Part shown: positions 1-61,275 of the stretch, one piece after another
How the letters are laid out: the number at the start of each line of letters is the position of its first letter
Numbering within the stretch: the stretch's first letter is position 1
From: Desulfosporosinus sp.
GTDB taxonomy: Bacteria; Bacillota; Desulfitobacteriia; Desulfitobacteriales; Desulfitobacteriaceae
DNA: 64,000 nt
Direction of reading: 5' to 3'
Assembly: GCA_020692355.1 (NCBI GenBank)
Contig: JAIMKP010000015.1
Location: forward strand, 1-64,000
Notes under the pieces: model-generated
The model's database searches: none
Seen by the model: the letters and a program-made list of their open reading frames with translations, nothing else
What the model was told of the DNA's origin: nothing
Translations under genes and position numbers: made by a program

Positions 1-2
1 AT

Positions 3-1343: not shown

Positions 1344-1347
1344 ATCT

Positions 1348-4854: not shown

Positions 4855-4858
4855 AGGC

Positions 4859-5074: not shown

Positions 5075-5154
5075 TGAAAATCCTCCTTGAGCCCCGCTCC
5101 AGGGCAGACTCAAATTCATTTTATGCAGCAATATTACCTCGACATAAAGATGGC

Positions 5155-7050: not shown

Positions 7051-7055
7051 TTCCT

Positions 7056-8605: not shown

Positions 8606-8809
8606 CACGGTGCCTCCGTTCTAAAATTTTATATAAATTTTGTTCAAATTCCACGAAAATCCAATTTTTGAGAACCCAATGTATTATCAAGTCAACAGGT
8701 GTGTGAGATGTAAAAATTTCCACTTACTTTAATATTGTATTGTACCTTACCGAGATAGTCAATTAATGATTTGCATACGCAAACGTATATGGAAGGGAGG
8801 AGCCTAGTT
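8606..8809. other. Divergent intergenic region at the left prophage boundary
   Basis: About 200 bp of A+T-rich sequence separates the minus-strand ABC-3C operon from the plus-strand phage genes and should hold both promoters and the left attachment site. A small palindrome ATACG-CAAA-CGTAT lies at 8775-8788, 20 bp upstream of the first phage reading frame, and could be an operator. I could not assign convincing -35/-10 pairs, and I found no repeat shared with the right boundary longer than about 8 bp. Confidence 0.4.
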
Positions 8810-43878: not shown

Positions 43879-43932
43879 CAACTTGACTTCTATCAAGTTG
43901 AGAGTGATGAATAGAATGCTAATTTGATAGAA
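43879..43932. promoter_or_regulatory. Nested inverted repeats upstream of the recombinase genes
   Basis: CAACTTGA (43879-43886) pairs with TCAAGTTG (43893-43900), and TTCTATCAA (43888-43896) is the inverse of TTGATAGAA (43924-43932). The overlapping arms form alternative structures directly before the first recombinase start. They could be a recombinase binding site, an operator, or part of attP. Confidence 0.4.
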
Positions 43933-43944
43933 AGGAGTAAAGCC

Positions 43945-45231
43945 ATGCGAGTGAGGATCATTGAGCCGACGGCCAAAAAGCAAATCCAAAAGAAAAGGGT
44001 CTGCGCTTATGCTAGGGTATCCACCGACCAGGACAAACAGGGCGAATCTTTGGAAAACCAGATGACCTATTACGAGAACCTCATCTCCTCAAATCCTGAG
44101 TACGAATATGTAGGGGTTTTTGCGGATCGGGGAATCACCGGAACGAAGGATAACCGCCCTGAGTTTCAGAGAATGCTTAACCTTTGCCGAGAAGGGAAAA
44201 TAGACCTCATCATTACGAAATCGATCTCACGGTTTGCAAGAAATACCGTGGTTGTGCTACAGACGGTCCGAGAACTTAAGGATATCGGGGTTGAGGTGAG
44301 ATTTGAAAAAGAGAATATCCAAACTCTCTCGGGGGACGGTGAGTTAATGCTTACCGTCCTTTCTTCTTTTGCCCAAGAGGAGAGCAAAAGTGTGAGCGAC
44401 AATATGAAGTGGCGGTACCGGAAGAAGTTTGAAAACGGAGAACTCGTTTTAAACACCCAGCGCTTTCTTGGCTATGACAAGGATGCCGATGAAAACTTGG
44501 TGATCAATCCTAAGGAAGCCGAGATCGTCAAACGGATTTATACGGAGTATTTAGCAGGAGACGGGTCCTTTAAAATTGCGAAACGGTTAGAGTCAGAAGG
44601 AGTCCCCACGGTTACTGGGTCCCGATGGAATGAATCGAGCATCCTCGATATTCTTAAGAACGAAAAGTACAAAGGGGATGTTAAACTCCAAAAGACCTAC
44701 AGAGACAACCACATCAACAAGCGAAAGAAAAGAAACCACGGCGAAGTGGATAGCTTCTATATTGAAAATAACCACTCGCCCATTGTGACCAAGGAAGTAT
44801 GGGAGCAAGTCCAGCTGGAGATGAAAAAACGGGCTGAGGCAAAAGGAAACTTTCAGGGCTCTACGAAAGGCCAGAACCGCTACCCGTTAACCGGGAAATT
44901 ATTCTGCGCGAAATGCGGATCCCCCTTAAGGCGGAGAACCTGGAACAGTAAACACGCCTGCCGCAAGATTGTCTGGCAATGCAGCAACTACATTGAAAAC
45001 GGCAAAGAGGCTTGCCCGGGTACGACCATTGAAGATAGCGTAATTGCAAGCGTTAACATACAGGGACCAACCGTTGTGGAGGAGGTTATGAAGAATGGCA
45101 AGAAACATTACCGTTATTCCAGCCAAGGGCAACCGGACAAGCCTCGCCGAGCACAGAAAGCCCCAGAAAAAGCGGATGGCCGCGTATTGCCGCGTGTCAA
45201 CCGACCAATTAGAACAGTTATCAAGCTATGA
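43945..45231 (+). CDS. Serine site-specific recombinase, first of a tandem pair
   Basis: A 428-aa large serine recombinase. Resolvase domain: CAYARVSTDQDKQGESLENQ with the nucleophile serine (about residue 24) and RFARN; recombinase domain (FLGYDKDADENLVINPKEAE; SSILDILKNEKYKGDVKLQK); zinc ribbon with CAKCGSPLRR. Large serine integrases usually have a longer coiled-coil end; here the last ~46 residues are arginine- and proline-rich and are read through the start of the next gene in another frame. AAGGAG precedes ATG 43945. It likely excises or integrates the prophage together with its partner. Confidence 0.9.
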   Translation: MRVRIIEPTAKKQIQKKRVCAYARVSTDQDKQGESLENQMTYYENLISSNPEYEYVGVFADRGITGTKDNRPEFQRMLNLCREGKIDLIITKSISRFARNTVVVLQTVRELKDIGVEVRFEKENIQTLSGDGELMLTVLSSFAQEESKSVSDNMKWRYRKKFENGELVLNTQRFLGYDKDADENLVINPKEAEIVKRIYTEYLAGDGSFKIAKRLESEGVPTVTGSRWNESSILDILKNEKYKGDVKLQKTYRDNHINKRKKRNHGEVDSFYIENNHSPIVTKEVWEQVQLEMKKRAEAKGNFQGSTKGQNRYPLTGKLFCAKCGSPLRRRTWNSKHACRKIVWQCSNYIENGKEACPGTTIEDSVIASVNIQGPTVVEEVMKNGKKHYRYSSQGQPDKPRRAQKAPEKADGRVLPRVNRPIRTVIKL

Positions 45232-46504
45232 TGCTCAGGTCAGTTACTACACCAACTTTATAACCAATCACCCGGATTATGAGATGGCGGGGATCTACGC
45301 GGATGAGGGCATTTCCGGCACTAACACCAAAAAGCGGGAGCAGTTTAACAAGATGATTGAGGATTGCAAAGCGGGAAAAATTGATATGGTCATTACCAAA
45401 TCCATTTCAAGGTTTGCAAGGAATACCCTGGACTGTTTGAACTTTGTAAGACTCCTCAAGGATTTAGGAATTGGAGTGATATTCGAAAAGGAAAACATTA
45501 ATTCCTTAGACAGTAAAGGAGAAGTCCTGCTTACGATTCTCAGCTCACTCGCCCAGGACGAGAGCCGGTCGATCTCGGAAAACTCAACCTGGGGTATCCG
45601 GAGACGATTTGAACAAGGAAAGGTTCAGGTCAACCAAACGAAGTTTCTGGGTTACGACAAAGATGAGAACGGAGACTTGGTGATTAATGAGAAGCAAGCT
45701 AAGATTGTACGAAGGATTTTTTCTGATTATCTGGATGGGAAAGGGCCCAATAGGATAGCCAAGGACCTGGAAAAAGAAAAGGTTCCGAAATGGGACGGTA
45801 CCTACAAATGGTACGAAAGCAGCATTCGGAAAATGCTCAGCAATGAAAAATACAAGGGTGACGCTCTTCTTCAAAAGACTTACACCGTCGATTTTCTTTC
45901 GAAGAAGCGGGCCGAAAATGATGGAGATGTTCCTCAATACTATGTTGAGAATAGCCACCCCGCCATTATTGATAAGGACACTTGGGAAGCGGTCCAGCTT
46001 GAAATGGAGAGACGGCGAGCTTATGCTGAGAAGCACGGGATCCACAAGGTTGATTACGCAACCCATGATAATCCCTTCGCCGGACGGATCATTTGCGGTA
46101 ACTGCGGTGGGGCATACGGAAGGAAGGTTTGGAATTCGACCGATGAAAGGCTCCGGAGGATTATCTGGCGGTGTAACAATAAATATTTAGCCAAAGGAGA
46201 AAAGGGGTGCGGGAGCGGGCATATTGATGATGGGGTTTTGTATCAGGCGTTTATAAGTGTGTTCAACGCGGTGGTTGAAAACAAGGATTACTTCATGGAA
46301 AAGTGGGCAGAACAGATTAACGGACAAGACATCCTTAAACGAGTCATGGCGAAGCGATTTATAGCTATATTCAAAATGTCAAAGCCGATTGACCGCTTTG
46401 ACGTAGACCTGTACTTTAAATTGACAGAAAAGATAACGGTTTTTGATGGTAAGCTAGTTGTCAGTCTGCTTGACGGGTCTGAAGTGGAATGCGAGATTGA
46501 ATAG
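45095..46504 (+). CDS. Serine site-specific recombinase, second of a tandem pair
   Basis: A 469-aa large serine recombinase: AAYCRVSTDQLEQLSSYDAQ (catalytic serine about residue 35), ISRFARNTLDCLNFVRLLKD, FLGYDKDENGDLVINEKQAK, SSIRKMLSNEKYKGDALLQK, and zinc ribbon CGNCGGAYGR with CNNKYLAKGEKGCG. About half of its residues are shared with the upstream recombinase in the conserved blocks, so the pair looks like an old duplication. GGAGGAGG sits 10 bp before ATG 45095, inside the upstream gene; the two genes overlap by 137 bp. In many clostridial prophages both partners are needed for integration or excision. Confidence 0.9.
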   Translation: MARNITVIPAKGNRTSLAEHRKPQKKRMAAYCRVSTDQLEQLSSYDAQVSYYTNFITNHPDYEMAGIYADEGISGTNTKKREQFNKMIEDCKAGKIDMVITKSISRFARNTLDCLNFVRLLKDLGIGVIFEKENINSLDSKGEVLLTILSSLAQDESRSISENSTWGIRRRFEQGKVQVNQTKFLGYDKDENGDLVINEKQAKIVRRIFSDYLDGKGPNRIAKDLEKEKVPKWDGTYKWYESSIRKMLSNEKYKGDALLQKTYTVDFLSKKRAENDGDVPQYYVENSHPAIIDKDTWEAVQLEMERRRAYAEKHGIHKVDYATHDNPFAGRIICGNCGGAYGRKVWNSTDERLRRIIWRCNNKYLAKGEKGCGSGHIDDGVLYQAFISVFNAVVENKDYFMEKWAEQINGQDILKRVMAKRFIAIFKMSKPIDRFDVDLYFKLTEKITVFDGKLVVSLLDGSEVECEIE

Positions 46505-46553: not shown

Positions 46554-46733
46554 ATTTTCATGACCAAATCGATATTGTTATCAGATTTTTGTCCCAATAA
46601 TGTGGTAATATGGGATTAATAAAATGAGATATGTGGTAGACAAATGGATTATAGGAACACGGAACCCTAAATCTAGGAATATAGGCCTAATATTAATCTG
46701 GGTTTTATTTTGGTTAGATAGGAGGGGAAAAAG
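46554..46733. other. Right prophage boundary region
   Basis: About 180 bp of A+T-rich sequence without a gene. It should contain attR and the promoter for the TIM-barrel gene. I see the ribosome site AGGAGGGG at 46720-46727 but no confident promoter, and no clear repeat shared with 8606-8809. Confidence 0.4.
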
Positions 46734-46742
46734 ATAGCCTAC

Positions 46743-47606
46743 TTGATTCCGATACAATACCACAAATGCATGTATCCTCAAGATATTAAACCAAAGATAC
46801 AAGAAGTAACTGGGCATTTCGACATCTCCATGGTATCAGTAACCAGAGACTATTCGTTACATACAGAGTATTGCTTCACCAGAAGAAAATTTGATTCAGT
46901 AGTTGTTAGAAGATACAGTTCTATCTGTGAAGCCAATAAGAGAGGAATACCAATGTTATGGTATTCGAAAGAGTGGGCGTTGGACTTTGCAGATTTTATA
47001 AGGGACCTAGCCCAAGACGCTCCGGGGCCAAGAGTAATCGAAATTCACCCGCCTTTTTCGGATTACAGTGATATTGGGAGCTTCCTCGATATCTACTCTA
47101 CATTTGAAAATAGAATAACGGAATACTTCCCTGATGTAACAATCCTGATTGAAAATAGAAGCGGTACTAGATACTCGGGTGGGGATTTTGTTGTTTCAAG
47201 AATCAATCAGCTTATAGAACTTTCCAACGAAATTGAGCAGCGTGGCTTTGCCTTGAGGGTTACCCTAGACATCCCCCAGCTTTTTACTGCTCACCAAATT
47301 ACCAAGTCAAGGATGAAGTCAATGGAAAATCTATTTACAGATATTAAAGACATTAGGCATAACATCTTAGGTATTCATTTGTGGGGAAAGCGGGACAGCG
47401 GGAATGGCCGGAGAGTCGCACACGTTGGTGATTTAAATGATTATTTTATGGAAGACATGAGTTACAAGAGTCGCTTCTTAACCAGCATGTTAGATGTATT
47501 TGATGATGATGTTTGCCGTTACTTTGTTCCGGAGGTCAATAGTGGTAGGGAAGACCTTGTTTCCATAGTTAATGATTTAAAGGAAGTTGGGTTTAAGTTT
47601 GTTTAG
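46743..47606 (+). CDS. TIM-barrel protein, endonuclease IV/xylose isomerase-like
   Basis: A 287-aa protein with beta-strand ends that carry likely metal ligands in barrel order: VIEIHPPFSD (about 99), ILIENRSGTRYSGGDF (about 137), LRVTLDIPQLFTAHQ (about 175), ILGIHLWGKRDSG (about 206), VAHVGDLNDYF (about 224) and VPEVNSGREDL (about 263). This order of E, E, D/H, H, D/H and E is that of the AP-endonuclease/sugar isomerase superfamily. The ribosome site AGGAGGGG is 15 bases from TTG 46743 but six from ATA 46734, so a start at ATA or a mutated ATG is possible. The next gene begins at its stop; the pair is a two-gene unit. Role in nucleic acid or base metabolism is inference. Confidence 0.6.
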   Translation: MIPIQYHKCMYPQDIKPKIQEVTGHFDISMVSVTRDYSLHTEYCFTRRKFDSVVVRRYSSICEANKRGIPMLWYSKEWALDFADFIRDLAQDAPGPRVIEIHPPFSDYSDIGSFLDIYSTFENRITEYFPDVTILIENRSGTRYSGGDFVVSRINQLIELSNEIEQRGFALRVTLDIPQLFTAHQITKSRMKSMENLFTDIKDIRHNILGIHLWGKRDSGNGRRVAHVGDLNDYFMEDMSYKSRFLTSMLDVFDDDVCRYFVPEVNSGREDLVSIVNDLKEVGFKFV

Positions 47607-47632
47607 TGAGTGTACTGCAAAGGAATGATGTT

Positions 47633-49036
47633 ATGGCAAGAGTAGCATTACTTTCATGTACGAGCCGCAAAAAACCATATCGATGCGAAGCGCGGGAATT
47701 GTATTCAGAGAGCCCACGTTTTCGCCGCGCTTATATGTATGCAAAGCTTGTTGCTGATAAAGTTTACATTTTATCAGCGAAATACGGTTTGGTTGCAGAG
47801 GACACAAGGATTGAACCATACAACGAAACTATTAAAGAAAAAGGTGTTCAGGAACGGCGAAAATGGGTAGAATCAGTAATTGATGGTTTAAAGAAAGTTG
47901 CAGATCTCGAACAGGACGAGTACATCATAATAGCAGGAGAGGCCTATAATGAATATCTTCTTCCACATCTAAAATCTTATTGGCTACCCCTCAAAGGAAG
48001 GGCTTTAGGCGAATGGATTCCGGAATTAGATAGGTTGATTCAGTCCGAAAATATGCCAGTTTCTGCAGATGCCCTACATAAACTGTTTAATGGGCTTCCG
48101 CGGCTAGATTGGACTATGATCAATAATATTCCATACCAAAACGGTATTTACATTATGTTTGAAAAAGGGCAAAGCTATCATGGTATAGATAGAATTGTAC
48201 GGGTGGGTACACATAGGGGTCAGGACAGGCTTAAGGCAAGATTGAAGGATCACTTTGTCAAGGAAAACGCTAATGGCAGTATTTTTAGAAAGAACATCGG
48301 AAGAGCATTTTTGAAAATGGCTGGAGATTCCTATCTGAAAATATGGGAACTCAAAATATGGGAACTCGATACATCGAAAGCCGATATTGTTAGGGATAAC
48401 GCCAATTTAATAGATGAACAAAAGGAAGCTAGTCTTGAAACAAGAATCAGCGATTACCTGAGGGCAAATATAACCTTTGTATGTTTTCCAGTGAAAACAG
48501 AAGCAGAAAGGCTTCGATTGGAAGAAGGTATTATTTCGACGTTAAACAAGCAACCAGATTTTGGGTCTAGTAATGACTGGTTGGGCTTACAGAGTCCAAT
48601 ATCAGAAATAAGAGATAGCGCTCTTTGGAATCGGCAGGGCCTAGACGGTCAGACTTTAAGTGAGGATGACTTTGAACGTATTAAGTGGCTTTCAAGGTTC
48701 GGTGATCATGGTAACGGAGCTTTACCTGCTATAAAACGAAAGGCTGAACGACCAACAAGTCAGGCTATTGTAGATGGAAAATCCTCAATGACAGGTAAAA
48801 AAACGGCTGGTGATGTCCGTCAATATATAGAGCACTTATTCAATGAAGCAAAGCTGCGCGGCGAAAAGTATTTAGACTTGGTTTCAGGGCAAATACATAA
48901 AGAGCTTGGTATGCAAAACAGAATGCCGCAGGTTTGCAGGATCATGTATGAAAAGATGGGTGCAAATGATCAAATTTTGCACACCACACCTAGCGGCAAT
49001 AGTTCTACTATAAAAATAAGATTCTATATCACATAA
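47633..49036 (+). CDS. DUF6884 domain plus GIY-YIG nuclease-like protein
   Basis: A 467-aa protein. Residues 1-135 match DUF6884 (ARVALLSCTSRKKPYRCEAR; YILSAKYGLVAEDTRIEPYN; YIIIAGEAYNEYLLPHL), a YaaA-like group. Residues about 165-300 have a GIY-YIG core (NGIYIMFEKGQSYHGIDRIV, RVGTHRGQDRLKARLKDHFV, where G-I-Y, R-V-G-T and R are in place; a late E is EEGIISTLN). The C-terminal 90 residues (TAGDVRQYIEHLFNEAKLRG) look like a DNA-binding helical domain seen fused to nucleases. ATG 47633 follows AAGGAATG; GTG 47606 is an alternative. It is coupled to the TIM-barrel gene. A nuclease or DNA-modification role is inferred. Confidence 0.7.
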   Translation: MARVALLSCTSRKKPYRCEARELYSESPRFRRAYMYAKLVADKVYILSAKYGLVAEDTRIEPYNETIKEKGVQERRKWVESVIDGLKKVADLEQDEYIIIAGEAYNEYLLPHLKSYWLPLKGRALGEWIPELDRLIQSENMPVSADALHKLFNGLPRLDWTMINNIPYQNGIYIMFEKGQSYHGIDRIVRVGTHRGQDRLKARLKDHFVKENANGSIFRKNIGRAFLKMAGDSYLKIWELKIWELDTSKADIVRDNANLIDEQKEASLETRISDYLRANITFVCFPVKTEAERLRLEEGIISTLNKQPDFGSSNDWLGLQSPISEIRDSALWNRQGLDGQTLSEDDFERIKWLSRFGDHGNGALPAIKRKAERPTSQAIVDGKSSMTGKKTAGDVRQYIEHLFNEAKLRGEKYLDLVSGQIHKELGMQNRMPQVCRIMYEKMGANDQILHTTPSGNSSTIKIRFYIT

Positions 49037-49117: not shown

Positions 49118-49620
49118 ATGACAGATGAACAAAGGCAAAAGATTAAAATGCTACGATACCAAGGTTTTGGCTACAAAAAATAGCAAATGAAGTAGGGGTA
49201 TCAAGAGACTCGGTTAGGTGCTATTGCCGGAGGAATGGTTTAGGCGGATGTGGGGCGGAGTTAATTTCGGAATATCAAACCGTTATGAAAGAAGAATTTA
49301 AGTATATCCTATGTCTTAATTGTGGTTCGGAAATTAAACAAAAGAAGCTTGGACGGAAGAAAAAATACTGCTCGATGAGCTGCAAAAGTGAGTGGGAGAA
49401 GGTTCATAAAAAATCATACACTGTTACATGTGAGTATTGCGGAAAAGAGTTTAAATCCTTAGGAGTTAAAGGACGAAAGTTTTGCAGCCAGGAGTGTTAT
49501 CAGCGGGATCGATTTTGGCGGGAGGAAGATGCTGCGGAAGTTGCGAAGAAGATTCTAGAGTTTAAAAAAGTAAACCACTTGCCGAAATGGCTTAAGGATT
49601 TACTCCTGTCAAACACATGA
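49118..49620 (+). pseudogene. HTH/zinc-finger phage-type protein with an A-run frameshift
   Basis: The gene opens MTDEQRQKIKMLRYQGFGYK and stops at TAG after an A-run near 49176; one extra A restores IANEVGVSRDSVRCYCRRNG and an open frame to 49620 with two cysteine sets (CLNCGSEIKQ with CSMSCKSEW; CEYCGKEF with CSQECYQRDRFW). The order and spacing match the intact relative at 21596. It is either phase-variable in the A-run, a lesion or a base-call error. A start at ATG 49285 would make only the zinc-finger half. Its presence outside the prophage suggests an older phage remnant. Confidence 0.65.
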
Positions 49621-50402: not shown

Positions 50403-52136
50403 GTGAAGATTAGTCCGAGTATGACTGAGATTGAACAGGCCGCAGATCTATTGGTAAACCGGTATAACATTTCGACTCAATTGCTAGGGCAATTGTTTGG
50501 CGTAGAATCAAGAGATCAGGCCAATGAAGTTTTAAGGGATTTGGGACATACAATGTTGGGTAGAGTTGAACTTACGAAACTACTAATCTTTCGTAAAGGG
50601 TCAACCCTTTTTGGCGGCAGTCATGAAGAAGTAAAGAAGTTAAGGAGGCATCTCTTGTCTCAGTTAGACCAAGATGAACTTCGGCAAATATTTGAAAAGC
50701 ATATCGGTACGGATAATTCCATAAAATCTACATCCTATATGGTTACACCGCTCGTTAACAAGAAGTGGCATGCTAGTGGTAGGTGGCCAATGGACTTCGT
50801 AGAATCCCTGGATTTCCCGGCTATTTTTGCTGGTGTCAAACAAACCCAAACATCTCCTACAATTACTAATGTTGAGCCATTTTCACCCATTCCTAGATTG
50901 GTAGAATTTCAGGAAAGTTTGAAAGAAAAGATGCTAGAAGTTCTCAATCGTGATGGTGATAGGACTCGTTGCATAGTTACCTTACCTACTGGAGGTGGAA
51001 AAACCAGAGTAGCAGTAGAGGCATTTATAGATTGGATGCAACCCCACTTTTCCGAGGGAAAATATTTGGTTTGGATAGCACAGAGCGAAGAGCTGTGTGA
51101 ACAGGTAATAAGCTGTGTTCAACAGATGTGGGGAAGTCGCGAATTCGTAAGTTCTTTAAGAATCTACAGATACTTTGGTGGACGTGATATTCCCGAAGGG
51201 GAACTATGCGGAGGAGTAGTTGTTTCTAGTATTCAGCAATTGCACAGTAGAATTAAAGCAAATGATGAAGATTTGAACACATTCTTATCAAATACCGGGG
51301 CAATGATAATTGACGAGGCACACCGTGCGGTCTCATTGATGTATGATGGGTTATTGGAAAAGGCTGTCGAATTGAACGGAAATGAGCTGTTTCCCATTTG
51401 TGGATTGTCTGCTACCCCAGGGAGAACTGGATTGAAGAAACAAGGTGAAATTGCAAAGCTGGTTGAGAGATTCCAGATGTACCTTATTGAGCCGGATCTG
51501 GGTGATGAATATAATAACGACCCATTAAGATATTTCAGAGAAAGTGGATATTTAGCATACGTAAAACATGTTATATACCCCTCTGGGAAGGAGTATACAC
51601 TTACTGAACAAGAGATCAGTCAGATTGCTGTAGATTTCGATGAGTATCTCGGCCCAACATTTTTGAAAAGATTATCCAAGGATCCTGAACGCAACCTACA
51701 GATTATAAAAAAACTATTAGATATACCTAAAGGTAAACCGGTATTGGTTTATGCATGTACAGTTGAACATGCCCACTTCCTATCGGTTATTTTAACAGCA
51801 GAGGGTCGACCAGCGGGCGTGATCTCCTCTGAGACGCCTCTTACGATTCGACGGGGATTAATTCAGGATTTCAAAGACGGAAAACTTGATTTTCTTTGTA
51901 ACTATGGGGTGTTAACCACTGGATTTGATGCCCCTAAAACTGAGTATGTTGTTATTTGTAGGCCGATGACTAGTGTCATTCTTTATGAACAAATTATTGG
52001 TCGTGGCGTGCGTGGACCCAAATTTGGTGGAACCGATGAGTGTACCATAATTGACTTTGCTGATAATATACATCGACTTGGACCTTCTTTGGCGTATTCA
52101 CGGTTTTCTGACTACTGGAGTAGTGAGGAGTTTTAG
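50403..52136 (+). CDS. SF2 DEAH-type helicase
   Basis: A 577-aa SF2 helicase. Residues 1-160 are unassigned; LPTGGGKTRVAVEAFIDWM (Walker A, about 196), MIIDEAHRAVSLMYD (DEAH, about 303), CGLSATPGRTG (motif III, about 335) and a helicase C lobe with TTGFDAPKTEYVVICRP and EQIIGRGVRGPKFGG (motif VI, about 535) are clear. It resembles the helicases of type III restriction and other defence loci. GTG 50403 has GGGAAGGGGA upstream. It stands alone between a terminator and mobile-element debris; a link with the giant helicase 1 kb downstream is possible. Confidence 0.85.
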   Translation: MKISPSMTEIEQAADLLVNRYNISTQLLGQLFGVESRDQANEVLRDLGHTMLGRVELTKLLIFRKGSTLFGGSHEEVKKLRRHLLSQLDQDELRQIFEKHIGTDNSIKSTSYMVTPLVNKKWHASGRWPMDFVESLDFPAIFAGVKQTQTSPTITNVEPFSPIPRLVEFQESLKEKMLEVLNRDGDRTRCIVTLPTGGGKTRVAVEAFIDWMQPHFSEGKYLVWIAQSEELCEQVISCVQQMWGSREFVSSLRIYRYFGGRDIPEGELCGGVVVSSIQQLHSRIKANDEDLNTFLSNTGAMIIDEAHRAVSLMYDGLLEKAVELNGNELFPICGLSATPGRTGLKKQGEIAKLVERFQMYLIEPDLGDEYNNDPLRYFRESGYLAYVKHVIYPSGKEYTLTEQEISQIAVDFDEYLGPTFLKRLSKDPERNLQIIKKLLDIPKGKPVLVYACTVEHAHFLSVILTAEGRPAGVISSETPLTIRRGLIQDFKDGKLDFLCNYGVLTTGFDAPKTEYVVICRPMTSVILYEQIIGRGVRGPKFGGTDECTIIDFADNIHRLGPSLAYSRFSDYWSSEEF

Positions 52137-52340
52137 TAAAGTTTTTACGACTTGATTGCAATAGCGTATTTCTAAAACTTTGCTAATATGCATGTGGTTG
52201 GGACGCGTCGGCAATATGTAATATTGTAAGTGAGAAATTGTATGTTGAGGGCGGTTTAATGTTTAACAGAATAATAGCTGTGGAGTGTTGAATGGAGTAG
52301 AATTCCAATAGGAGCAAAGTGATTGCTGTCTATGGCGTAG

Positions 52341-52441
52341 CCACCCGCCTGGGTTGCTTTCTTGCGTAACTGGGGCGTATGGGTATATGCTGGGTTAGGG
52401 GTATCTCTACCATGGGAACATAGCGTATACAATCCATGGCG
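52341..52441 (+). repeat. Interspersed repeat, type 2 unit
   Basis: Contains GGGCGTATGGGTATATG, then TACCATGGGAA, ATAG and TCCATGGCG in that order. The same blocks occur in the same order at 58390-58479. Confidence 0.65.
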
Positions 52442-52443
52442 AA

Positions 52444-52535
52444 CCCCGCCGGGGTGGCTGTCTGTTAAACATTTGCGTTGGGAATTTTGCTGGGTTGGCG
52501 GATACCCCTCTCACGCTAATTTGGATGGCCAGGTG
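52444..52535 (+). repeat. Interspersed repeat, type 1 unit
   Basis: Starts CCCCGCCGGGGTGGCTGTCT and ends GGATACCCCTC, CACGCTAATTTGGA, GGCCAGGTG. It matches 58191-58280 closely, including the whole 33-bp end with two changes. Confidence 0.7.
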
Positions 52536-52723
52536 AATATCAGTTACTTGCGATTTTAGGTGTTTCATAGTGCTACAAGGTACTTTTTTGCCATGACAAA
52601 AAATATGAGCGGTTTGTTAGCCTGTGCCGCCCAAGTAATAATATTCCTTATGGAGATCTATTTATTTAAGAGATCTTGAAATATTGACCATAAACTGCTT
52701 AGTGTTTTTGATCCAATCGTGAG

Positions 52724-52818
52724 ACTCTCACTTCTACAAGTGGGAGTGGTACCTCGTACTTTGCTTCGGTGGGGGTAGACTCCCCCACCGAAGTCCCGAT
52801 GTTCAACTTTAGTTGAAC
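52724..52818 (+). mobile_element. IS200/IS605-like end remnant (three consecutive hairpins)
   Basis: ACTCTCACTT/AAGTGGGAGT (52724-52746), CTTCGGTGGGGG/CCCCCACCGAAG (52764-52793, 12-bp perfect stem) and GTTCAACT/AGTTGAAC (52801-52818) follow in a row, the last joined by the GAAGTCCCGATGTTCAA text often seen at right ends of clostridial IS605 elements. No tnpA or tnpB is present. It is either a decayed copy or a short non-autonomous derivative. Confidence 0.6.
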
Positions 52819-52901
52819 GAGTTCACGCTTTGTCTAAGAAGAAGTTGTTGAGCAACAAATATTGGATTATCTTTTTAAAAGAAGAAAAGAGGTTGATATT
52901 A

Positions 52902-53120
52902 GTGGCCGATCTTAAATATGAAATTGTTGAAAGAATTGCCATCCTTTCGGAAAAAGGGGGTTGGACAAAGGAACTGAACAAAGTTAGTTGGAACGATAGA
53001 CCGGCCAAATTTGACCTTCGTGATTGGAATCACGATAAAGGGAATATGGGAAAGGGGTCAACATTGACTGACGAAGAGTTGCGGAATCTTAGAGAAGTAT
53101 TAAATGCAATTGATTTATAA
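52902..53120 (+). CDS. PC4/YdbC-family single-strand DNA-binding-like protein
   Basis: A 72-aa protein matching the YdbC/PC4 family nearly end to end: ADLKYEIVERIAILSEKGGW, TKELNKVSWNDRPAKFDLRD, and MGKGSTLTDEELRNLREVL. YdbC-type proteins are dimeric and bind single-stranded DNA. GTG 52902 is chosen by homology and an AGAGGT site; the frame extends upstream to 52830 into the IS-like end but has no ribosome site there. It ends 18 bp before the giant helicase, so the two are co-expressed. This suggests it loads on DNA strands opened by the helicase. Confidence 0.85.
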   Translation: MADLKYEIVERIAILSEKGGWTKELNKVSWNDRPAKFDLRDWNHDKGNMGKGSTLTDEELRNLREVLNAIDL

Positions 53121-53138
53121 GGCAAGGGGAAGTGGATA

Positions 53139-56100
53139 ATGGCCCAAGTCATCAGTATTTTCAATTTTCTAAAGGAATATAACGAATTATCCAATCCGGT
53201 TATTACCGAATTAGCCAATCAGAAATGGAGCTTGAATATCTCTGATTTGCCTAGAATTAAGGAAATTAAGTCAATGTTTTCAGGTGAAGACGTAGATAAT
53301 TTAGCTATTTTAGAAGTTACAAAACCAATTCTTGAGCCATGTCCCCCTCCAGAGGATTTTCTTCTCGAATGGTTGGAAAAAGACTGGAGAAAATTATCGG
53401 TTGAACAAGTTTCCAGAAAGGAAATGATAATACGAGAAATTCTGGATGAAGAGGGTAATAAATCTTATGACGAAGAACATTTTAATGCCAGCGATGAGCG
53501 TGTAGAGGCCTATGAAAAGTGGATTCTTCAGCGGGAACAATGGAGAGAGACCGAGGTACCAAAGGAACAGGGACTAGCCCTTTATAATAATTTATTTAAA
53601 TTGTATTCCGACATGAGAAAAGAAGCAGAAAGTGTTGAGCTTATTTTAGGGGATGGCTTCCTTTTTTGGCGAAAGGAAGCAATATATATCAATCATCCTA
53701 TCTTATTGCAGAAGGTTTACTTAGAATTTGATCCTCTTACCCCAGCCTTTACCATTAAGTGTGAGGAAATCAAGACGGGTGTCTATACATCTGTACTGAG
53801 AATAATACCCTCAATCAACCAAAAGATGCTCTCGGATCTTATACAAGATGTTGAGATGAATAATTACAGTATCGCCGACTTTAATAATACCTTTTCCCTT
53901 TATAAACGAATGGTTCACGTCATTGATACGAATGGAAGTTTTACGGAAAAAATCGAATCCGTTTCTTCAGAGGCGCGGATGTTCTCTAGCCCAGTTATCT
54001 TTCTGAGAAAGAGAACGTTGGGCTATTCAACGTTTATCGAGAGTATTATAAATGAAATCAGCGAGAAGGGTGAGGGTATTCTGTCGGAATTTTTTGAGAT
54101 CATGGCTGGTAACCATAAAAAATCTCAGCATACTAATGTGATTGAGGACAACTGGAATCACAGTGGTATCGACCAGGATATATTGTTAACATTACCCGCG
54201 AATAATGAGCAATTAAAAATTATTAAATATTTAGATCAATATGGAGCAGTACTTGTTCAAGGACCCCCTGGAACGGGTAAAACCCATACGATAGCCAACC
54301 TTATTGGCCATCTATTGAGCCAGGGCAACAGTGTGTTAGTCACCAGTCATACAGAAAAGGCACTAACCGTCCTAAAGGATAAGGTGTACAAAGACCCGTA
54401 CAACAAAGACCTAAACTTACAAAGTCTGTGTATCAGCTTATTGAGTTCCAAATCTCAGAAGAAAGAAATGGACGAAGCCATTAATGAGATTGCTGAAAAA
54501 GGAACATCAATAAACTTGCATGATGCCAAAAGCAGAATAGCACGCTTAGAAACGCAAAGAGAAAATCTGATTCAGGCCGCGAAAGAAAAGAGCAACGAGC
54601 TCCTTAAGATTAGATCCTTAGAATACAAAGATATTGTCTATGATAACCAGACCCTCAAACCGATAGAGGCAGCCCAATTTATTAAGAGCGGGGTGGGGAG
54701 CTTTGATTATATTAAAAGCATAACGAGCGACGACACGATTGGGTTGCCACTGAACTTGGCTGATTTGGAACTTTTATATCAAACCAATGAGACGATTACT
54801 GCCGCTGATGAAGCGGTATTAGATCATAAAGTACCAGACTTAATGAACATTTGGAAACCACAAGATTTTGATGATAAGAAGAGCCAGTTACAGCGGTTAG
54901 AAAAAGACTTGCAGCAATATACACACTCCAGTGTGTTTCAAGAAAATGTCACCGAATTGGCAATCAATGACTTAATGACACAGTGTTTGCAAATAAGTTC
55001 GGAAATACGAGGCTTTGAATCTTTGCAACATACGATAATTAATAAATCCATTGCCGATTCGATATACCCCAAGTTATGGCAGGATGTAATTCGGGAATTT
55101 GACCAATTGATGGAATCTTATGAGAAAGTTTGTCAGATTAGATTAGAAGAAGAATTCGATATATCAAAAGCATTAATGGATGAGGATACCTTATCGACCT
55201 TACAGGAAATTATTGATTCCGGAAAAGAAGTACCTGTTAAATTCCTGACTACAGTTTCGAAGCCCAGATGGAAAAAAGCCAAAGACAGTATCAAAAATAA
55301 TGGAAGGGTTATTGAAAGTAGAAAGGACTTTATCCTGGCGTATGACCTTATTTCGTATGAACTGAGTAAGAACAAGGTGCTAAAAAAGGTAAATAAACTG
55401 ATACCTGAAGAAATTACCCGTTCTTTCGTCACAGAAGATAATTTTGAAGTCATCTTGAAAAACTTAAGTAAGGAGATTATTTCAGCACTTTCATGGTATG
55501 ACGATCAATGGATGCCAGTATTCAGACAATATAATATTCAACTCCACAATACAATTCTGTTTGAAAAACATATAGACCTAAATGCACCCTTGTCTTCCAT
55601 TTTGCAATTCGTTAATAGCGTCATGGTGCCTAATCTTATGCGAGAAATTACCAAATTTAACTATTGTAAACGTAACGCTGAATGGCACTCATTTTTTAAA
55701 TATCTCTCCGTGTATCAAGGCTCGAGCACTTTAGTTGATGAGCTTATTTTTGCTGTTGAAAGAAAAGACAGCAGTTTATATAAGTCGTCCTACACGACTT
55801 TATGTACTATCCTTTCTAAAAGAGAGACTTATGCCAAGAGAAAAACTTTATTAACAAAACAGAAAAATGTAGCACCCGACTGGGCGAAAGCAATTGAAGG
55901 GAGAAATGGTATTCACGGTCTTGGAGTATTACCTGAGAACATTGAACAAGCATGGAAGTGGTGCCAATTAAGTAACCAGATTGCAAGAATAGACGCCTAT
56001 GTTCCTAACAAAATCCAGAAGGAGTTAGGGAATATTAGTTATCAGTTAACGGTCAACGCCAGAAAGTTGGCGTATGAAAAAGCGTGGTTTGAAATTATAA

Positions 56101-57989
56101 ACAATAGAACAACTGCCCAAGCCCAAGCCATTGAAGGATGGAGAACAACGATCCGGCAGATCGGAAAAGCAACTGGAAAAAATGCGCCGATGCTTATGAA
56201 AAAAGCAAGAGAGCTAATGCCGCTTTGTCAATCCGCCATTCCGGTTTGGATTATGCCATTGAATAGAGTTGTCGAGAATTTTGATCCACGCAACAACAAA
56301 TTTGATGTTGTAATCATTGACGAGGCGAGCCAATCGGATATTCTTGCCCTATCGGCACTATATTTAGGGAAAAGGATTATCATTGTTGGTGATGATGAGC
56401 AAGTTAGTCCAGATTCTGTGGGCATTAAGAAAGATGAAATTGAGGCTCTGATTCAGCAATACCTTCAAGGAGTTCCTAATAATCACCTCTTTAATGCTCA
56501 AACTTCACTCTATGATATGGCGAAGTCATCTGGCTTCAAACCGTTGATGCTTACTGAGCACTTTCGGTGTCTTCCGGAAATTATCGAGTTTAGTAATCAG
56601 TTATCCTACAACGGAAGAATAAAACCGTTAAGAGAAGCGTCAAAAGTCAAGACAAAGCCCCCAGTTATCGAATACAGGGTTCCCGATGGTTTTAAGAATT
56701 ATAATAAAGTCAATGAAGTCGAAGCAGAACACATTGCTTCTTTAGTTTGTGCCTGTGCAGAAATGGATGAATACAAAGGGAAAAGTATAGGTGTTATTTC
56801 TTTGCTGGGAGTAGAGCAGGGCTATGTAATTGATCGATATTTACAAACGTATCTTGATCCGGTTGAATATGAATCCAGAAAAATTCAATGTGGTATTCCC
56901 CCTCAATTTCAAGGCGATGAGCGGGATGTTATTTTCTTAAGCGTCGTCGAAGGGCCAAGTGAAAAAGGTGGGCCGGTCAGGTTGCTCAGCGAGGATGGAA
57001 GAAATGATATGACCCGTAAGCGGTATAATGTTGCTGCCAGTCGGGCCAAAGATCAAATGTGGGTAGTCCATTCTCTGAATCCGGAAATTGATTTGAAACC
57101 GGATGATATTCGCTTGAGGCTTATCAAGCACTCGATTAATCCTAACTCTCGGGAAGACGAGCAAATATTAAGCGCTGCGGAGTCGCCTTTCGAGACAGAA
57201 GTAATGACGATTCTACTTAACAAAGGATACCGGGTTATCCCACAAATGAAAGTTGGAGCATATCGAATCGATATGCTCATTGAAGATGGGGACAAACGTA
57301 TTGCCTTAGAGTGTGACGGTGAAAAATGGCATACACAGGACGACTTACCCAACGATTTAAAACGACAAGCGATCCTTGAGAGGCTGGGTTGGAATTTCAT
57401 AAGAATACGGGGAAGTGCTTTTTATAGAGAACCAGAGATCACTATGAATGAGGTTGTTTCAAAACTTGAGGGTTATGGCATTAATCCTAATTATGCTCAT
57501 TATTGTGAGACTGAGAACAATAAAGATCACGAATTGATTGATAGAGTGAAAAAACGCGCTAATGAAATTCGTCAAAGTTGGCACCTAGTTGAAGGTGAAG
57601 GCGTAGCAGAAGTAGATGGCGAAGACGAAGGGGATGGCGAGGAGTTAAAAGGCGAAGAACCTACGGGTAAAACCGCAGGCCATTCAGAACGTAAAGGGCA
57701 TCCAATTAAGGACCACGAAAAAACGGTTACGACGCCAGTTAAGGATAATCCAAGTAATAATCCTCAAACGGAAGGTATTGCAAGTCCCAAAGTGAACAGG
57801 GAAAAAGCTGACAGGTCGCTATATGATTTCAGAAATCATAAAGTTAAAGGTAGTTCACCGGCAATTAAGGGTAACAAAGATGATAATAGAGTTAAAAGTA
57901 AGATTACCGGACAAAGCAAACTTGAAGAGCCAAGCAGCGATAAAAAGCCGTTATTCGATTTTAGACAGAAAAAAAACGAAAATAGATAG
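53139..57989 (+). CDS. Giant SF1 helicase with C-terminal REase_MTES_1575-like nuclease
   Basis: A 1616-aa protein. Residues 1-360 are unassigned. The SF1 (Upf1-like) helicase has VQGPPGTGKTHTIANLIGHL (about 373) and, after a ~680-residue coiled insertion, VVIIDEASQSDILALSALYL (motif II, about 1060), IIIVGDDEQVSP, LTEHFRCLPEIIEFSNQL, GDERDVIFLSVV and NVAASRAKDQMWVVHS. A Vsr/DUF559-like nuclease follows (about 1350-1450): YRIDMLIEDGDKRIALECDG, EKWHTQDDLPNDLKRQAILE, GWNFIRIRGSAF. The last 130 residues are disordered and carry two similar motifs, SLYDFRNHK and PLFDFRQKK. Helicases of this layout occur in predicted anti-phage systems. Co-expression with a PC4-like protein is unusual. Confidence 0.88.
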   Translation: MAQVISIFNFLKEYNELSNPVITELANQKWSLNISDLPRIKEIKSMFSGEDVDNLAILEVTKPILEPCPPPEDFLLEWLEKDWRKLSVEQVSRKEMIIREILDEEGNKSYDEEHFNASDERVEAYEKWILQREQWRETEVPKEQGLALYNNLFKLYSDMRKEAESVELILGDGFLFWRKEAIYINHPILLQKVYLEFDPLTPAFTIKCEEIKTGVYTSVLRIIPSINQKMLSDLIQDVEMNNYSIADFNNTFSLYKRMVHVIDTNGSFTEKIESVSSEARMFSSPVIFLRKRTLGYSTFIESIINEISEKGEGILSEFFEIMAGNHKKSQHTNVIEDNWNHSGIDQDILLTLPANNEQLKIIKYLDQYGAVLVQGPPGTGKTHTIANLIGHLLSQGNSVLVTSHTEKALTVLKDKVYKDPYNKDLNLQSLCISLLSSKSQKKEMDEAINEIAEKGTSINLHDAKSRIARLETQRENLIQAAKEKSNELLKIRSLEYKDIVYDNQTLKPIEAAQFIKSGVGSFDYIKSITSDDTIGLPLNLADLELLYQTNETITAADEAVLDHKVPDLMNIWKPQDFDDKKSQLQRLEKDLQQYTHSSVFQENVTELAINDLMTQCLQISSEIRGFESLQHTIINKSIADSIYPKLWQDVIREFDQLMESYEKVCQIRLEEEFDISKALMDEDTLSTLQEIIDSGKEVPVKFLTTVSKPRWKKAKDSIKNNGRVIESRKDFILAYDLISYELSKNKVLKKVNKLIPEEITRSFVTEDNFEVILKNLSKEIISALSWYDDQWMPVFRQYNIQLHNTILFEKHIDLNAPLSSILQFVNSVMVPNLMREITKFNYCKRNAEWHSFFKYLSVYQGSSTLVDELIFAVERKDSSLYKSSYTTLCTILSKRETYAKRKTLLTKQKNVAPDWAKAIEGRNGIHGLGVLPENIEQAWKWCQLSNQIARIDAYVPNKIQKELGNISYQLTVNARKLAYEKAWFEIINNRTTAQAQAIEGWRTTIRQIGKATGKNAPMLMKKARELMPLCQSAIPVWIMPLNRVVENFDPRNNKFDVVIIDEASQSDILALSALYLGKRIIIVGDDEQVSPDSVGIKKDEIEALIQQYLQGVPNNHLFNAQTSLYDMAKSSGFKPLMLTEHFRCLPEIIEFSNQLSYNGRIKPLREASKVKTKPPVIEYRVPDGFKNYNKVNEVEAEHIASLVCACAEMDEYKGKSIGVISLLGVEQGYVIDRYLQTYLDPVEYESRKIQCGIPPQFQGDERDVIFLSVVEGPSEKGGPVRLLSEDGRNDMTRKRYNVAASRAKDQMWVVHSLNPEIDLKPDDIRLRLIKHSINPNSREDEQILSAAESPFETEVMTILLNKGYRVIPQMKVGAYRIDMLIEDGDKRIALECDGEKWHTQDDLPNDLKRQAILERLGWNFIRIRGSAFYREPEITMNEVVSKLEGYGINPNYAHYCETENNKDHELIDRVKKRANEIRQSWHLVEGEGVAEVDGEDEGDGEELKGEEPTGKTAGHSERKGHPIKDHEKTVTTPVKDNPSNNPQTEGIASPKVNREKADRSLYDFRNHKVKGSSPAIKGNKDDNRVKSKITGQSKLEEPSSDKKPLFDFRQKKNENR

Positions 57990-58190
57990 TTCACAAAGGC
58001 AGAATGTCTTTAATGAATTAACTGATTTACTTAATATTGATGGAACGGGCGTTCAATACTTTAGAGGTTTTGTGCTAAGTGTAATTGGGACGAGATGGTC
58101 CAAATAGTTTACTGGTTTGGGACATTGTTCCAAGCCCCTCACCCACTCACATCCGAACCGTGCTTGGTTTACATATCTGGGCGTGCCCTA

Positions 58191-58280
58191 CGCTGGGGGT
58201 GGCTGTCTGTCGTAACAAGAACGTATGGGTATATGAGGCTTGCCGGATACCCCTCCCACGCTAATTTGGAGGGCCAGGTG
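58191..58280 (+). repeat. Interspersed repeat, type 1 unit
   Basis: Shares GGGGTGGCTGTCTG, CGTATGGGTATATG and the end GGATACCCCTC, CACGCTAATTTGGA, GGCCAGGTG with 52444-52535. Confidence 0.7.
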
Positions 58281-58389
58281 TGACGACTTTTTTAGGGAGG
58301 AATATTCGGGAAACGTGAAGAATTCTTCAGTAGAAATATCTTTTCTCAACGTATACAGTGGCAAAGTGGTCGTCGTGCGTTCATGGCTT

Positions 58390-58479
58390 CCCCCCGCCGG
58401 GGTGGGTGTCTGCTTAACAGGTGCGTATGAGTATGTGTTGGTTACTACCATGGGAAGATAGTACATTCAGTCCATGGCG
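58390..58479 (+). repeat. Interspersed repeat, type 2 unit
   Basis: Shares CCCCGCCGGGGTGG with the type 1 units and TACCATGGGAA, ATAG, TCCATGGCG with 52341-52441. Confidence 0.65.
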
Positions 58480-58548
58480 CAGCTCGCCTGGGGGGGATAA
58501 TGTCTAGGAAAACTGCTTGCGTTTCAACAATTTGTCCGGACGACATAG

Positions 58549-58601
58549 TATAATCAAACTCGGGGTTGATTTGTATTAAAAAACCAAATCCCACCCCGAG
58601 T
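58549..58601 (+). promoter_or_regulatory. hsd operon -10 element and leader hairpin
   Basis: TATAAT at 58549-58554 is a consensus -10; a matching -35 is not clear. Seven bases later a stem opens: ACTCGGGG (58558-58565) pairs with CCCCGAGT (58594-58601), with an inner GATTTG/CAAATC. The transcript would therefore begin with a stable hairpin, or the palindrome is an operator. The GGAG site for hsdM follows. Confidence 0.5.
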
Positions 58602-58626
58602 ATAAAATAAGATAGGAGCTAAAGCA

Positions 58627-60096
58627 GTGCTGACAGGAGAAATTCGCAACAAGGTTGATAGAATATGGTCAGATATCTGGGCTGGTGGTATTTCCAACCC
58701 TATAACCGTTATAGAACAACTTACCTATCTGATGTTTATCCGTTCGCTGGATGAAAAGGAACTGGAAAACGAGAGTTTCGAAGCCCTAACTGGTGAAGCA
58801 ACGTCTAAAATCTTCCCGCAGGATGAAGAGGGACAGGCGATGCGTTGGAGCAAGTTTAAAACCAAAGACTCCCGCTTAATTTATGATATTGTCGGTACAA
58901 AGGTATTTCCGTTTATCAAAGCAATGAATGGAGAAAATGCCTCCGCTTTTTCTCGCTATATGCAGGATGCCATGTTTTTAATCCCAACCCCTCAGGTGTT
59001 GCAAAAGATGATTACTGGCTTAGACGAGCTGTATGAACACGATATTAAAGACCTTGATATGCAAGGCGACCTTTATGAATATATGCTGGGAAAGCTGGCA
59101 ACTGCAGGGCAAAACGGGCAGTTTAGAACGCCAAAGCATATTCGTGATATGATGGTGCGGTTGCTTGCCCCAACCCCCAACGATAAAATTTGTGACCCTG
59201 CGTGCGGGACAGCGGGCTTTCTCGTTTCTTCTGCAGAATATATCAGAGAAAATTTTGAATCGGATATGACTAGTGAGCAGTGGGATCATTTTGCCGGTGA
59301 GATGTTCACAGGCTTTGACACCGACAGAACCATGTTGCGTCTTTCCGCCATGAACCTGATGCTCCATTCTATTAATCAACCCCATATCAACTATGTGGAC
59401 AGCGTTTCCAAGCAGAACAATATTTCTTCAGCTTATGATATTGTTCTTGCCAATCCACCCTTTACCGGTACAGTGGACGCTGAGAGTATTAACGATAATT
59501 TGAAGGCAGTCTGCAATACCAAAAAAACCGAGCTTTTATTTGTGACACTTTTCTTGAGAATGCTACGCAAGGGTGGACGTTGTTCTTGTATTGTGCCAGA
59601 TGGCGTTTTGTTTGGTGGAAGCAGCGCACACAAAGCTCTACGCAAAGAGTTGGTAGAAAATCATCAGCTACAGGCGGTTATCTCCATGCCCAGCGGGGTG
59701 TTTAAGCCGTACGCAGGGGTTAGCACTGCCGTTCTTGTATTTACCAAAACAGGCGCGGGCGGTACTGGTAAGGTATGGTTTTACGATATGAAAGCCGATG
59801 GCTTTTCATTGGACGATAAACGTTCTGCCATTGAGGCCAATGATATTCCCAATATTCTTGCTCGTTTTCATAATCTTGAAGGTGAAGCTAACCGCAAGCC
59901 TACTGAGCAAAGTTTTTTGGTGGACAAGTCTGCCATTGAAGCCAAAGACTATGATTTATCAATCAACCGTTATAAAGAGGTTGTTTATGAGAAGGTGGAA
60001 TATGATGCGCCAAAGGTGATTATGACCCGCCTTGATGAGCTGAGCCTTAAGATTGCTTCTAAAATGGAGGAATTGAGGGGGCTTATTGGTGGGTAG
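58627..60096 (+). CDS. hsdM: Type I restriction-modification methylase subunit HsdM
   Basis: A 489-aa HsdM. HsdM_N helices (VDRIWSDIWAGGISNPITVI; LTYLMFIRSLDEKE) are followed by the N6-adenine methylase: CDPACGTAGFLVSSAEYI (motif I, about 195) and VLANPPFTGTVD (NPPF, about 277). It works as the M2S modification complex with HsdS and as R2M2S for restriction. GTG 58627 follows TAGGAG. It overlaps hsdS by 11 bp. Confidence 0.95.
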   Translation: MLTGEIRNKVDRIWSDIWAGGISNPITVIEQLTYLMFIRSLDEKELENESFEALTGEATSKIFPQDEEGQAMRWSKFKTKDSRLIYDIVGTKVFPFIKAMNGENASAFSRYMQDAMFLIPTPQVLQKMITGLDELYEHDIKDLDMQGDLYEYMLGKLATAGQNGQFRTPKHIRDMMVRLLAPTPNDKICDPACGTAGFLVSSAEYIRENFESDMTSEQWDHFAGEMFTGFDTDRTMLRLSAMNLMLHSINQPHINYVDSVSKQNNISSAYDIVLANPPFTGTVDAESINDNLKAVCNTKKTELLFVTLFLRMLRKGGRCSCIVPDGVLFGGSSAHKALRKELVENHQLQAVISMPSGVFKPYAGVSTAVLVFTKTGAGGTGKVWFYDMKADGFSLDDKRSAIEANDIPNILARFHNLEGEANRKPTEQSFLVDKSAIEAKDYDLSINRYKEVVYEKVEYDAPKVIMTRLDELSLKIASKMEELRGLIGG

Positions 60097-61255
60097 GTGG
60101 AGTGTAAAGACATTAAGTGAAGTTGCAAATATTGTCGCTGGTTCTACTCCAAAAACGGCAGTAGATGAATATTGGAACGGTGAGCATAATTGGGTTACAC
60201 CAGCAGAACTAAATGATACGACTTTTGTTATCTATGAAACAGAGCGAAAAATTACGGAAAGAGCAATCAAAGATACAAGTTTGAAGTTACTACCTATAGG
60301 AACGGTTTTGCTTTCTTCGAGAGCTCCGATTGGCAAGGTAGCCATTGCAGGAGTGGAAATGTATTGCAATCAAGGATTTAAGAATTTAGTTTGTTCAGAT
60401 GAAATATACAACAAATATTTATTCTGGTTTCTGAAAGGAAAAACTGAGTTTCTAAATTCTCTTGGCAGAGGTGCAACTTTCAAAGAAATTTCTAAAACTA
60501 TTGTGGAAAAAATTGAAATTCCTCTTCCACCCCTCGAAACCCAAAAACAAATTGCCAAAACCTTAGACACCGCCGCAGACCTTCTTGCCATGCGCAAACA
60601 GCAACTTGCAGAGCTCGACAACCTTATCAAATCCACCTTTTACGATATGTTCGGCGACCCTGGAACGAATGAAAAGGGGTGGGAAACTGGAATAATCAAA
60701 GATTTAGCCCTAAAAATTCAATATGGCACAAGCGAGAAAGCTTCATTAGAGAACTTGCCGTATCCAATTTTGAGGATGGGCAACATAACATATCAAGGCG
60801 ATATGGATTTTTCAGATATGAAGTATATTGATCTAAGCGAAAAGGACAAGGAAAAGTATCTTGTTCATAAAGGCGAGATGTTGTTTAATCGAACAAATAG
60901 CAAAGAGCTTGTGGGGAAAACAGCTGTTTATAGAGAAGAGAAGCCCATGGCCTATGCAGGGTATCTGGTTCGATTGGTGCCAAAAGAAATGGCAAATAGC
61001 GAATTAATATCTGCATATCTTAATTCATTGCATGGTAAGAAATTGCTTTTAAAAATGGCCAAAAATATTGTTGGTATGGCAAATATAAATGCTCAAGAAT
61101 TAAGCAGAATCGAAATTTTTATTCCTCCGATCTCCCTCCAAAATCAATTCGCCGAAATCGTCACGAAAATCGAAGAGCAAAAAGCCCTTGTAAAAAGGGC
61201 AATCGACGAAACACAGTACCTGTTTGACAGCTTAATGAGCGAGTATTTCGAATGA
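60086..61255 (+). CDS. hsdS: Type I specificity subunit HsdS
   Basis: A 389-aa HsdS with two target recognition domains. TRD1 covers about 1-150 (LSEVANIVAGSTPKTAVDEY) and ends in the first conserved helix (IPLPPLETQKQIAKTLDTAA, then LAELDNLIKSTFYDMFGDP). TRD2 covers about 200-345 and ends in the second helix (IPPISLQNQFAEIVTKIEEQ). It sets the two-part DNA target of the complex. TTG 60086 or GTG 60089 is the start. Confidence 0.93.
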   Translation: MVGRWSVKTLSEVANIVAGSTPKTAVDEYWNGEHNWVTPAELNDTTFVIYETERKITERAIKDTSLKLLPIGTVLLSSRAPIGKVAIAGVEMYCNQGFKNLVCSDEIYNKYLFWFLKGKTEFLNSLGRGATFKEISKTIVEKIEIPLPPLETQKQIAKTLDTAADLLAMRKQQLAELDNLIKSTFYDMFGDPGTNEKGWETGIIKDLALKIQYGTSEKASLENLPYPILRMGNITYQGDMDFSDMKYIDLSEKDKEKYLVHKGEMLFNRTNSKELVGKTAVYREEKPMAYAGYLVRLVPKEMANSELISAYLNSLHGKKLLLKMAKNIVGMANINAQELSRIEIFIPPISLQNQFAEIVTKIEEQKALVKRAIDETQYLFDSLMSEYFE

Positions 61256-61275
61256 CTTGAGATGAGGTGAACTAA

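Follow-up and report, generated by a model that had tools for sequence, protein, structure and literature searches.

The window, a stretch of 64,000 nucleotides from a Desulfosporosinus sp. contig, carries a large defence island (flanks 1–8608 and 50403–64000) that is split by a prophage at approximately 9–46.5 kb. On the left side of the prophage are ABC-3C, SNF2/NOV_C helicase and DUF1156 genes; its right side has a RadD-like helicase, an Hhe/PDC-S37-like helicase-nuclease (1616 aa) and a type I restriction-modification (R-M) set. This gene content agrees with the first-pass annotation, which had placed the two genes studied here in a defence neighbourhood at a prophage junction. The right end of the prophage is marked by tandem large serine recombinases. 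The attachment site was not located, as the short direct repeats shared by the two flanks did not exceed 11-mers, which is chance level. The recombinases are directly followed by gene 1 and then gene 2, two intact and closely spaced open reading frames (ORFs) on the forward strand (Table 1). The HTH/zinc-finger gene after gene 2 (49118–49620) shows an apparent frameshift near 49178 when read from ATG 49119, and an ORF from 49285.

Table 1. Coordinates of the features discussed in the text. Positions refer to the window unless a locus number (L) is given; barrel residues are counted from the TTG start at 46743.
Feature	Position	Strand	Basis or remark
Tandem large serine recombinases, right prophage end	43924..46504	+	ORFs
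AGGAGG	46720-46725		before gene 1
Gene 1, predicted endonuclease IV-fold TIM barrel, 287-290 aa	46734/46743..47606	+	ORF, fold, relatives
H40, in SLHTEY, end of strand 36-40	46860..46862	+	endonuclease IV H69 position
H102, in EIHPPF	47046..47048	+	endonuclease IV H109 position
E137, in IENR	47151..47153	+	endonuclease IV E145 position
D176, in LDIPQ	47268..47270	+	endonuclease IV D179 position
H212, in IHLWGK	47376..47378	+	endonuclease IV H216 position
H227, in AHVGDL	47421..47423	+	endonuclease IV H231 position
E264, in VPEVNS	47532..47534	+	endonuclease IV E261 position
Gene 2, DUF6884 + GIY-YIG-like + C-terminal domain, 476 aa from GTG	47606..49036	+	ORF, 12-homologue alignment
DUF6884 (PF21818), residues 13-139, CxxxK + LSAxxG	47642..48022	+	Pfam 1e-33
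GIY-YIG-like domain, residues 153-360	48062..48685	+	PADLOC PDC-M57B 4e-68; hhalign
Fused-barrel units	L003:6152-8859; L004:6152-9174; L008:177-3129; also L010, L011

The start of gene 1 in the window would be either ATA 46734 or TTG 46743. The former is the start supported by the alignment, and the related gene on the viral contig L020 has a GTG at this position, behind an AGGAGG; the latter is distant from the ribosome-binding site. ATA is a listed but rare start codon in bacteria, and the window copy of gene 1 may be weakly expressed. For gene 2, most of the 12 aligned homologues start at the position of an internal ATG (47633), which is thus the likelier start and gives a protein of 467 aa. 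The overlap between the stop of gene 1 and the GTG start of gene 2 is therefore probably an artefact. With the ATG start the two genes are separated by 26 bp, and we rejected the overlap as evidence for the direct coupling that had been proposed for them. The short spacing and the same orientation leave co-transcription possible.

Searches of Pfam, NCBIfam, PADLOC and PDB sequences with gene 1 found no match. A profile search of PDB sequences returned nothing for either protein; weak matches to uS2 and pentatricopeptide proteins were judged to be due to chance. The structure of gene 1 was modelled with AlphaFold2 using ten natural relatives as input, which resulted in a confident model (pLDDT 90.9, pTM 0.90). 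When this model was compared with the PDB by Foldseek, endonuclease IV ranked at the top (4hno, 7.4e-7; 5zhz, 8.3e-7), with sugar isomerases and epimerases next, and in an independent library of viral models AP endonucleases made up most of the best named matches. As judged from the model, gene 1 is a TIM barrel of the endonuclease IV/xylose isomerase type. Foldseek TM-scores were only about 0.5, and hhalign produced no alignment between the barrel profile and the endonuclease IV and AP_endonuc_2 groups. The assignment of ligands therefore rests on motif order and strand position. A proof of endonuclease IV ancestry at the sequence level was sought and dropped, as there is no Pfam match and hhalign fails.

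Seven residues (H40, H102, E137, D176, H212, H227 and E264) are identical in all ten aligned relatives and in the copy from Thermococcus barophilus. They are located at or just after the C-terminal ends of the core strands, which span residues 36–40, 98–101, 133–137, 172–176, 208–213, 224–226 and 260–263 of the model. The motifs of the barrel occur in the order HTEY, IHPPF, IENR, LDxPQ, IHLWGK, AHxG and VPEVN, parallel to HAPY, FHPG, LLET, LDTCH, IHLND, DRHxxIG and FLETP in a true endonuclease IV (L066). We take the metal ligands of endonuclease IV to be H69, H109, E145, D179, H182, H216, D229, H231 and E261. By motif order, seven of these nine positions are kept in the barrel and two are lost: H182 is replaced by Q179, three residues after D176, and the D229 position is variable. 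Since the ligands of the third metal are partly missing, the barrel may work with a mono- or dinuclear site, in the manner of the isomerases. The confident model, the Foldseek matches and the seven invariant residues bear out the earlier description of a barrel with its ligands in endonuclease IV-type order. The relation to endonuclease IV (Nfo; AP_endonuc_2, PF01261) is one of fold and motif order only, as neither Pfam nor hhalign finds sequence similarity. Moreover, endonuclease IV is a housekeeping repair gene, whereas the barrel is mobile and associated with defence.

Six viral contigs carry relatives of the barrel at 42–59% identity, as do Carboxydothermus, Traorella, a nanoarchaeon, a Thermococcus barophilus plasmid and two MAGs, one from Clostridia and one from WOR-3. 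In the viral scans, alignment queries detected relatives and single-sequence queries did not. The family thus occurs in bacteria and archaea and is carried by prophages, plasmids and defence islands. It is an endonuclease IV-like, mobile, defence-associated family without a name in Pfam, NCBIfam or PADLOC. On L020, the recombinases upstream of the barrel are 67 and 70% identical to the window pair; the barrels of L020, L022 and L023 are beside integrases and that of L024 lies between tail genes. As for defence genes, L002 has AAA and DUF2357/PDDEXK_7 (PDC-M26-like) genes next to the barrel, and L021 has two m5C methyltransferases together with a McrB-like ATPase and McrC. The neighbours in L018 are a type IV REase and JetD, those in L014 are DUF499 and DUF1156, and the barrel is next to AbiH in L022 and to PDC-S26 in L020. 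In L061, degraded pieces of the barrel gene adjoin GmrSD, Mrr and DUF2357/PDDEXK_7; in L062 they adjoin McrB/McrC. No recognised defence neighbour was seen in L015, L016 and L023. The barrel genes of L020 (3652–4520) and L018 (3677–4500) are frameshifted, which together with the short degraded pieces of L061 and L062 indicates frequent gene loss.

The modification-dependent restriction systems McrBC and DUF2357/PDDEXK_7 (PDC-M26) are recurrent neighbours of the barrel. Such McrBC-type systems are found beside barrel genes or remnants at four of 14 loci (L002, L021, L061 and L062), against an expectation of 0.0023 per 16-kb locus (binomial 2.5e-8), bearing in mind that the loci are not a random sample. 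The expectation comes from about 76 occurrences of McrC-type families in 200 genomes of the phylum, a control that ignores the general clustering of defence genes, differences between phyla and the choice of loci. The association is one of neighbourhood, as the barrel has no AAA or PD-(D/E)XK domain. Unlike in these four loci, no McrBC system adjoins the barrel in the window.

In a more distant branch (20–30% identity), the barrel makes up the C-terminal portion of a protein of about 550 aa. This gene is followed, with overlapping ends, by a conserved partner gene of 350–460 aa (Table 1), so that, unlike the window pair, the fused barrel and its partner are a conserved two-gene unit. The fused barrel has lost H40, H102 and E137, and the unit has no match in PADLOC or Pfam. 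By eye, a gene directly downstream of a gene 2 homologue (L050:9155–10387) resembles the N-terminus of one of these partners (L004:7789–9174).

In gene 2, the DUF6884 domain scores 116.8 bits against a Pfam gathering score of 30, and PADLOC PDC-M57A matches residues 10–143 (4e-40). C18, K22, L56 and S57 of this domain are invariant in the 12 homologues. The PDC-M57B profile, which matches the following segment, carries no domain name. This segment aligns with GIY_YIG_2 in hhalign (70%, E=4e-5), and the Pfam GIY model matched only one member of the family, weakly (0.022). NGIY (N179–Y182), R199 and G201 of RVG, R212, H216 and E306 are invariant in the 12 homologues and N314 nearly so; the second GIY-YIG motif reads RVG rather than YIG. 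In GIY-YIG nucleases the two motifs are followed by a catalytic Arg and Glu, for which R212 and E306 are candidates. The structure model of gene 2 was too poor to use (pLDDT 53). The profile matches support a DUF6884 domain joined to a GIY-YIG-like core in one protein, as the first-pass annotation had described. This half of the proposed system is not undescribed, as PADLOC already lists PDC-M57A (DUF6884) and PDC-M57B (GIY-YIG-like), both of which match gene 2 strongly. Gene 2 is thus a fused form of the candidate system PDC-M57, with A and B in one protein and an added C-terminal domain. PDC-M57 itself is unvalidated, and the barrel is not part of it. Our literature search found nothing on PDC-M57, including no experimental antiphage record, and nothing on GIY-YIG together with YaaA or on endonuclease IV in antiphage work.

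The first domain of gene 2 points to a class of substrate. DUF6884 is related to YaaA and has a putative base-flipping pocket according to Pfam's authors (PMC11701544), and the DpdC domain is DUF6884 in the GATOR-GC listing (PMC11888242). DpdC, of the Dpd 7-deazaguanine system, hydrolyses dPreQ0 in DNA (PMC12839542). The gene 2 domain scores to DpdC with 3e-6 and weakly to YaaA; gene 2 differs from both by its extra, putative nuclease domain, and neither DpdA nor DpdB lies close to it in the window. In the Fusobacterium phage phiFN37 (L097:3197–5024), a stand-alone DUF6884 gene abuts a DpdA-like queuine transglycosylase-like gene and a queuosine precursor transporter. A stand-alone DUF6884 gene overlaps dpdA in the haloarchaeal virus HRTV-29 (L101:4013–5138), and in Mx4 (L099:4199–5605) DUF6884 is fused to DndB. 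These arrangements suggest that DUF6884 takes part in 7-deazaguanine DNA modification. Together with the chemistry of DpdC, they make the reading of a 7-deazaguanine-type base our best guess for the first domain of gene 2. A separate GIY-YIG gene beside DUF6884 in a cyanobacterium (L096) was discarded, as it does not align to the GIY segment of gene 2.

Among the homologues of gene 2, that of L050 adjoins type III R-M genes and that of L049 a GmrSD-type protein, both neighbours being read from the sequences. The L060 homologue is next to Mrr and the L054 homologue next to an SNF2/NOV_C-like helicase; that of L064 lies between phage tail genes, after one of them. Directly upstream of three homologues is a DUF4268 protein (L050:6411–7553, L054:6336–7478 and L057:6612–7526). 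The three proteins are 86–96% identical, with a shorter ORF in L057, and the DUF4268 protein is possibly the real partner of gene 2.

Each gene was thus found, separately, among defence genes or prophages. To ask whether they belong together, we compared their occurrence in both directions. None of the barrel relatives has a gene 2 relative nearby, and DUF6884 is absent from all 12 other barrel-bearing genomes or records, the MAGs and virus records among which may not be complete. In the other direction, the 12 homologues of gene 2 in the phylum (41–65% identity) have no barrel neighbour. No intact barrel was found in 12 genomes and two viral contigs with gene 2; one of these genomes has a degraded barrel piece, on another contig. 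Among 83 genomes of the class, the window genome alone has both genes. It is also the only one with an intact single-domain barrel, while gene 2-type proteins occur in several. Relatives of the fused barrel and of gene 2 are found in different genomes of the class. In everything searched, the pair is therefore unique to the window genome. Neighbours are not conserved across homologues from either side, and with neither adjacency nor co-occurrence in either direction, we rejected the first-pass reading of the two genes as one system.

We consider it probable that the two genes are independent accessory defence genes, a phosphodiesterase and a modification-dependent nuclease, that became neighbours by chance in an island split by a prophage. 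The activity, substrates and antiphage effect that we infer for the two proteins would then be as follows. Gene 1 is predicted to act as an endonuclease IV-type, metal-dependent phosphodiesterase, which would cut phage DNA where it is modified, damaged or abasic and might support any modification-dependent restriction system in its neighbourhood. For gene 2 we predict a modification-dependent nuclease in a single protein: DUF6884, with its YaaA/DpdC-like pocket, would read an altered base, probably of the 7-deazaguanine type, and the GIY-YIG domain would then cut. The location of the genes on the same strand, 26 bp apart and in a defence context, is also what one would expect of a genuine two-component unit assembled recently in this lineage, in which DUF6884 finds or excises the altered base, the barrel cuts at the abasic site so produced and the GIY-YIG domain cuts the other strand. 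The chemistries are plausibly complementary, combining base reading with AP-type cleavage. Such a unit is nonetheless very improbable, given that the genes co-occur in no other genome searched, in either direction, and that gene 2 homologues of 62–65% identity are spread over many genera without a barrel.

The role of the barrel can be read in two further ways. It could be an enzyme resembling sugar or nucleotide-sugar isomerases and epimerases, or else a multinuclear iron oxidase with this fold. Its task would then be to make or remove a modification, on a small molecule or a DNA base, and not to cut DNA. Sugar isomerases and epimerases are close behind in the Foldseek list, they share a four-ligand Glu-Asp-His-Glu core with the barrel, the barrel lacks two of the nine ligands of endonuclease IV, and base-modification genes do occur in prophages. 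We regard this as unlikely, because H40 and H102, which match the extra histidines of endonuclease IV, are invariant, the independent viral library gives mainly AP endonucleases, and the neighbours are restriction systems rather than genes of sugar metabolism. Alternatively, the barrel could be a prophage gene that shields the prophage or phage from host restriction, for counter-defence or superinfection exclusion, with gene 2 belonging to host defence. The position of the window copy directly after the recombinases would fit, as would the copies beside integrases or in phage late modules (L020, L022, L023 and L024). Barrels are also found away from prophages in defence islands of plasmids and chromosomes (L002, L014 and L018), and degraded remnants stay in such islands (L061 and L062), which makes a counter-defence role rather improbable. 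Returning to the barrel as an accessory defence gene, we tentatively suggest, as a possibility that we still hold to be doubtful, that it founds a new single-gene defence. The enzyme, endonuclease IV-like but lacking part of the three-metal site, would attack modified or base-stripped phage DNA, with restriction of the McrBC class as an opportunistic partner, in bacteria and archaea. A related branch would be that of the fused barrel, in which H40, H102 and E137 are lost, the N-terminal domain is new and a partner gene with overlapping ends is conserved.

Taken together, the pair is probably a coincidence of gene order, and one false candidate system is removed. What remains is an unnamed barrel family of bacteria and archaea that resembles a repair endonuclease and accompanies modification-dependent restriction. 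The link of DUF6884 to DpdA and DndB in phages provides a concrete candidate substrate class for PDC-M57, namely 7-deazaguanine-modified DNA. Gene 1 is the part worth an experiment. Should the barrel act on modified or abasic phage DNA, the chemistry of base-excision repair would be linked to antiphage defence, through a gene that can be tested directly.
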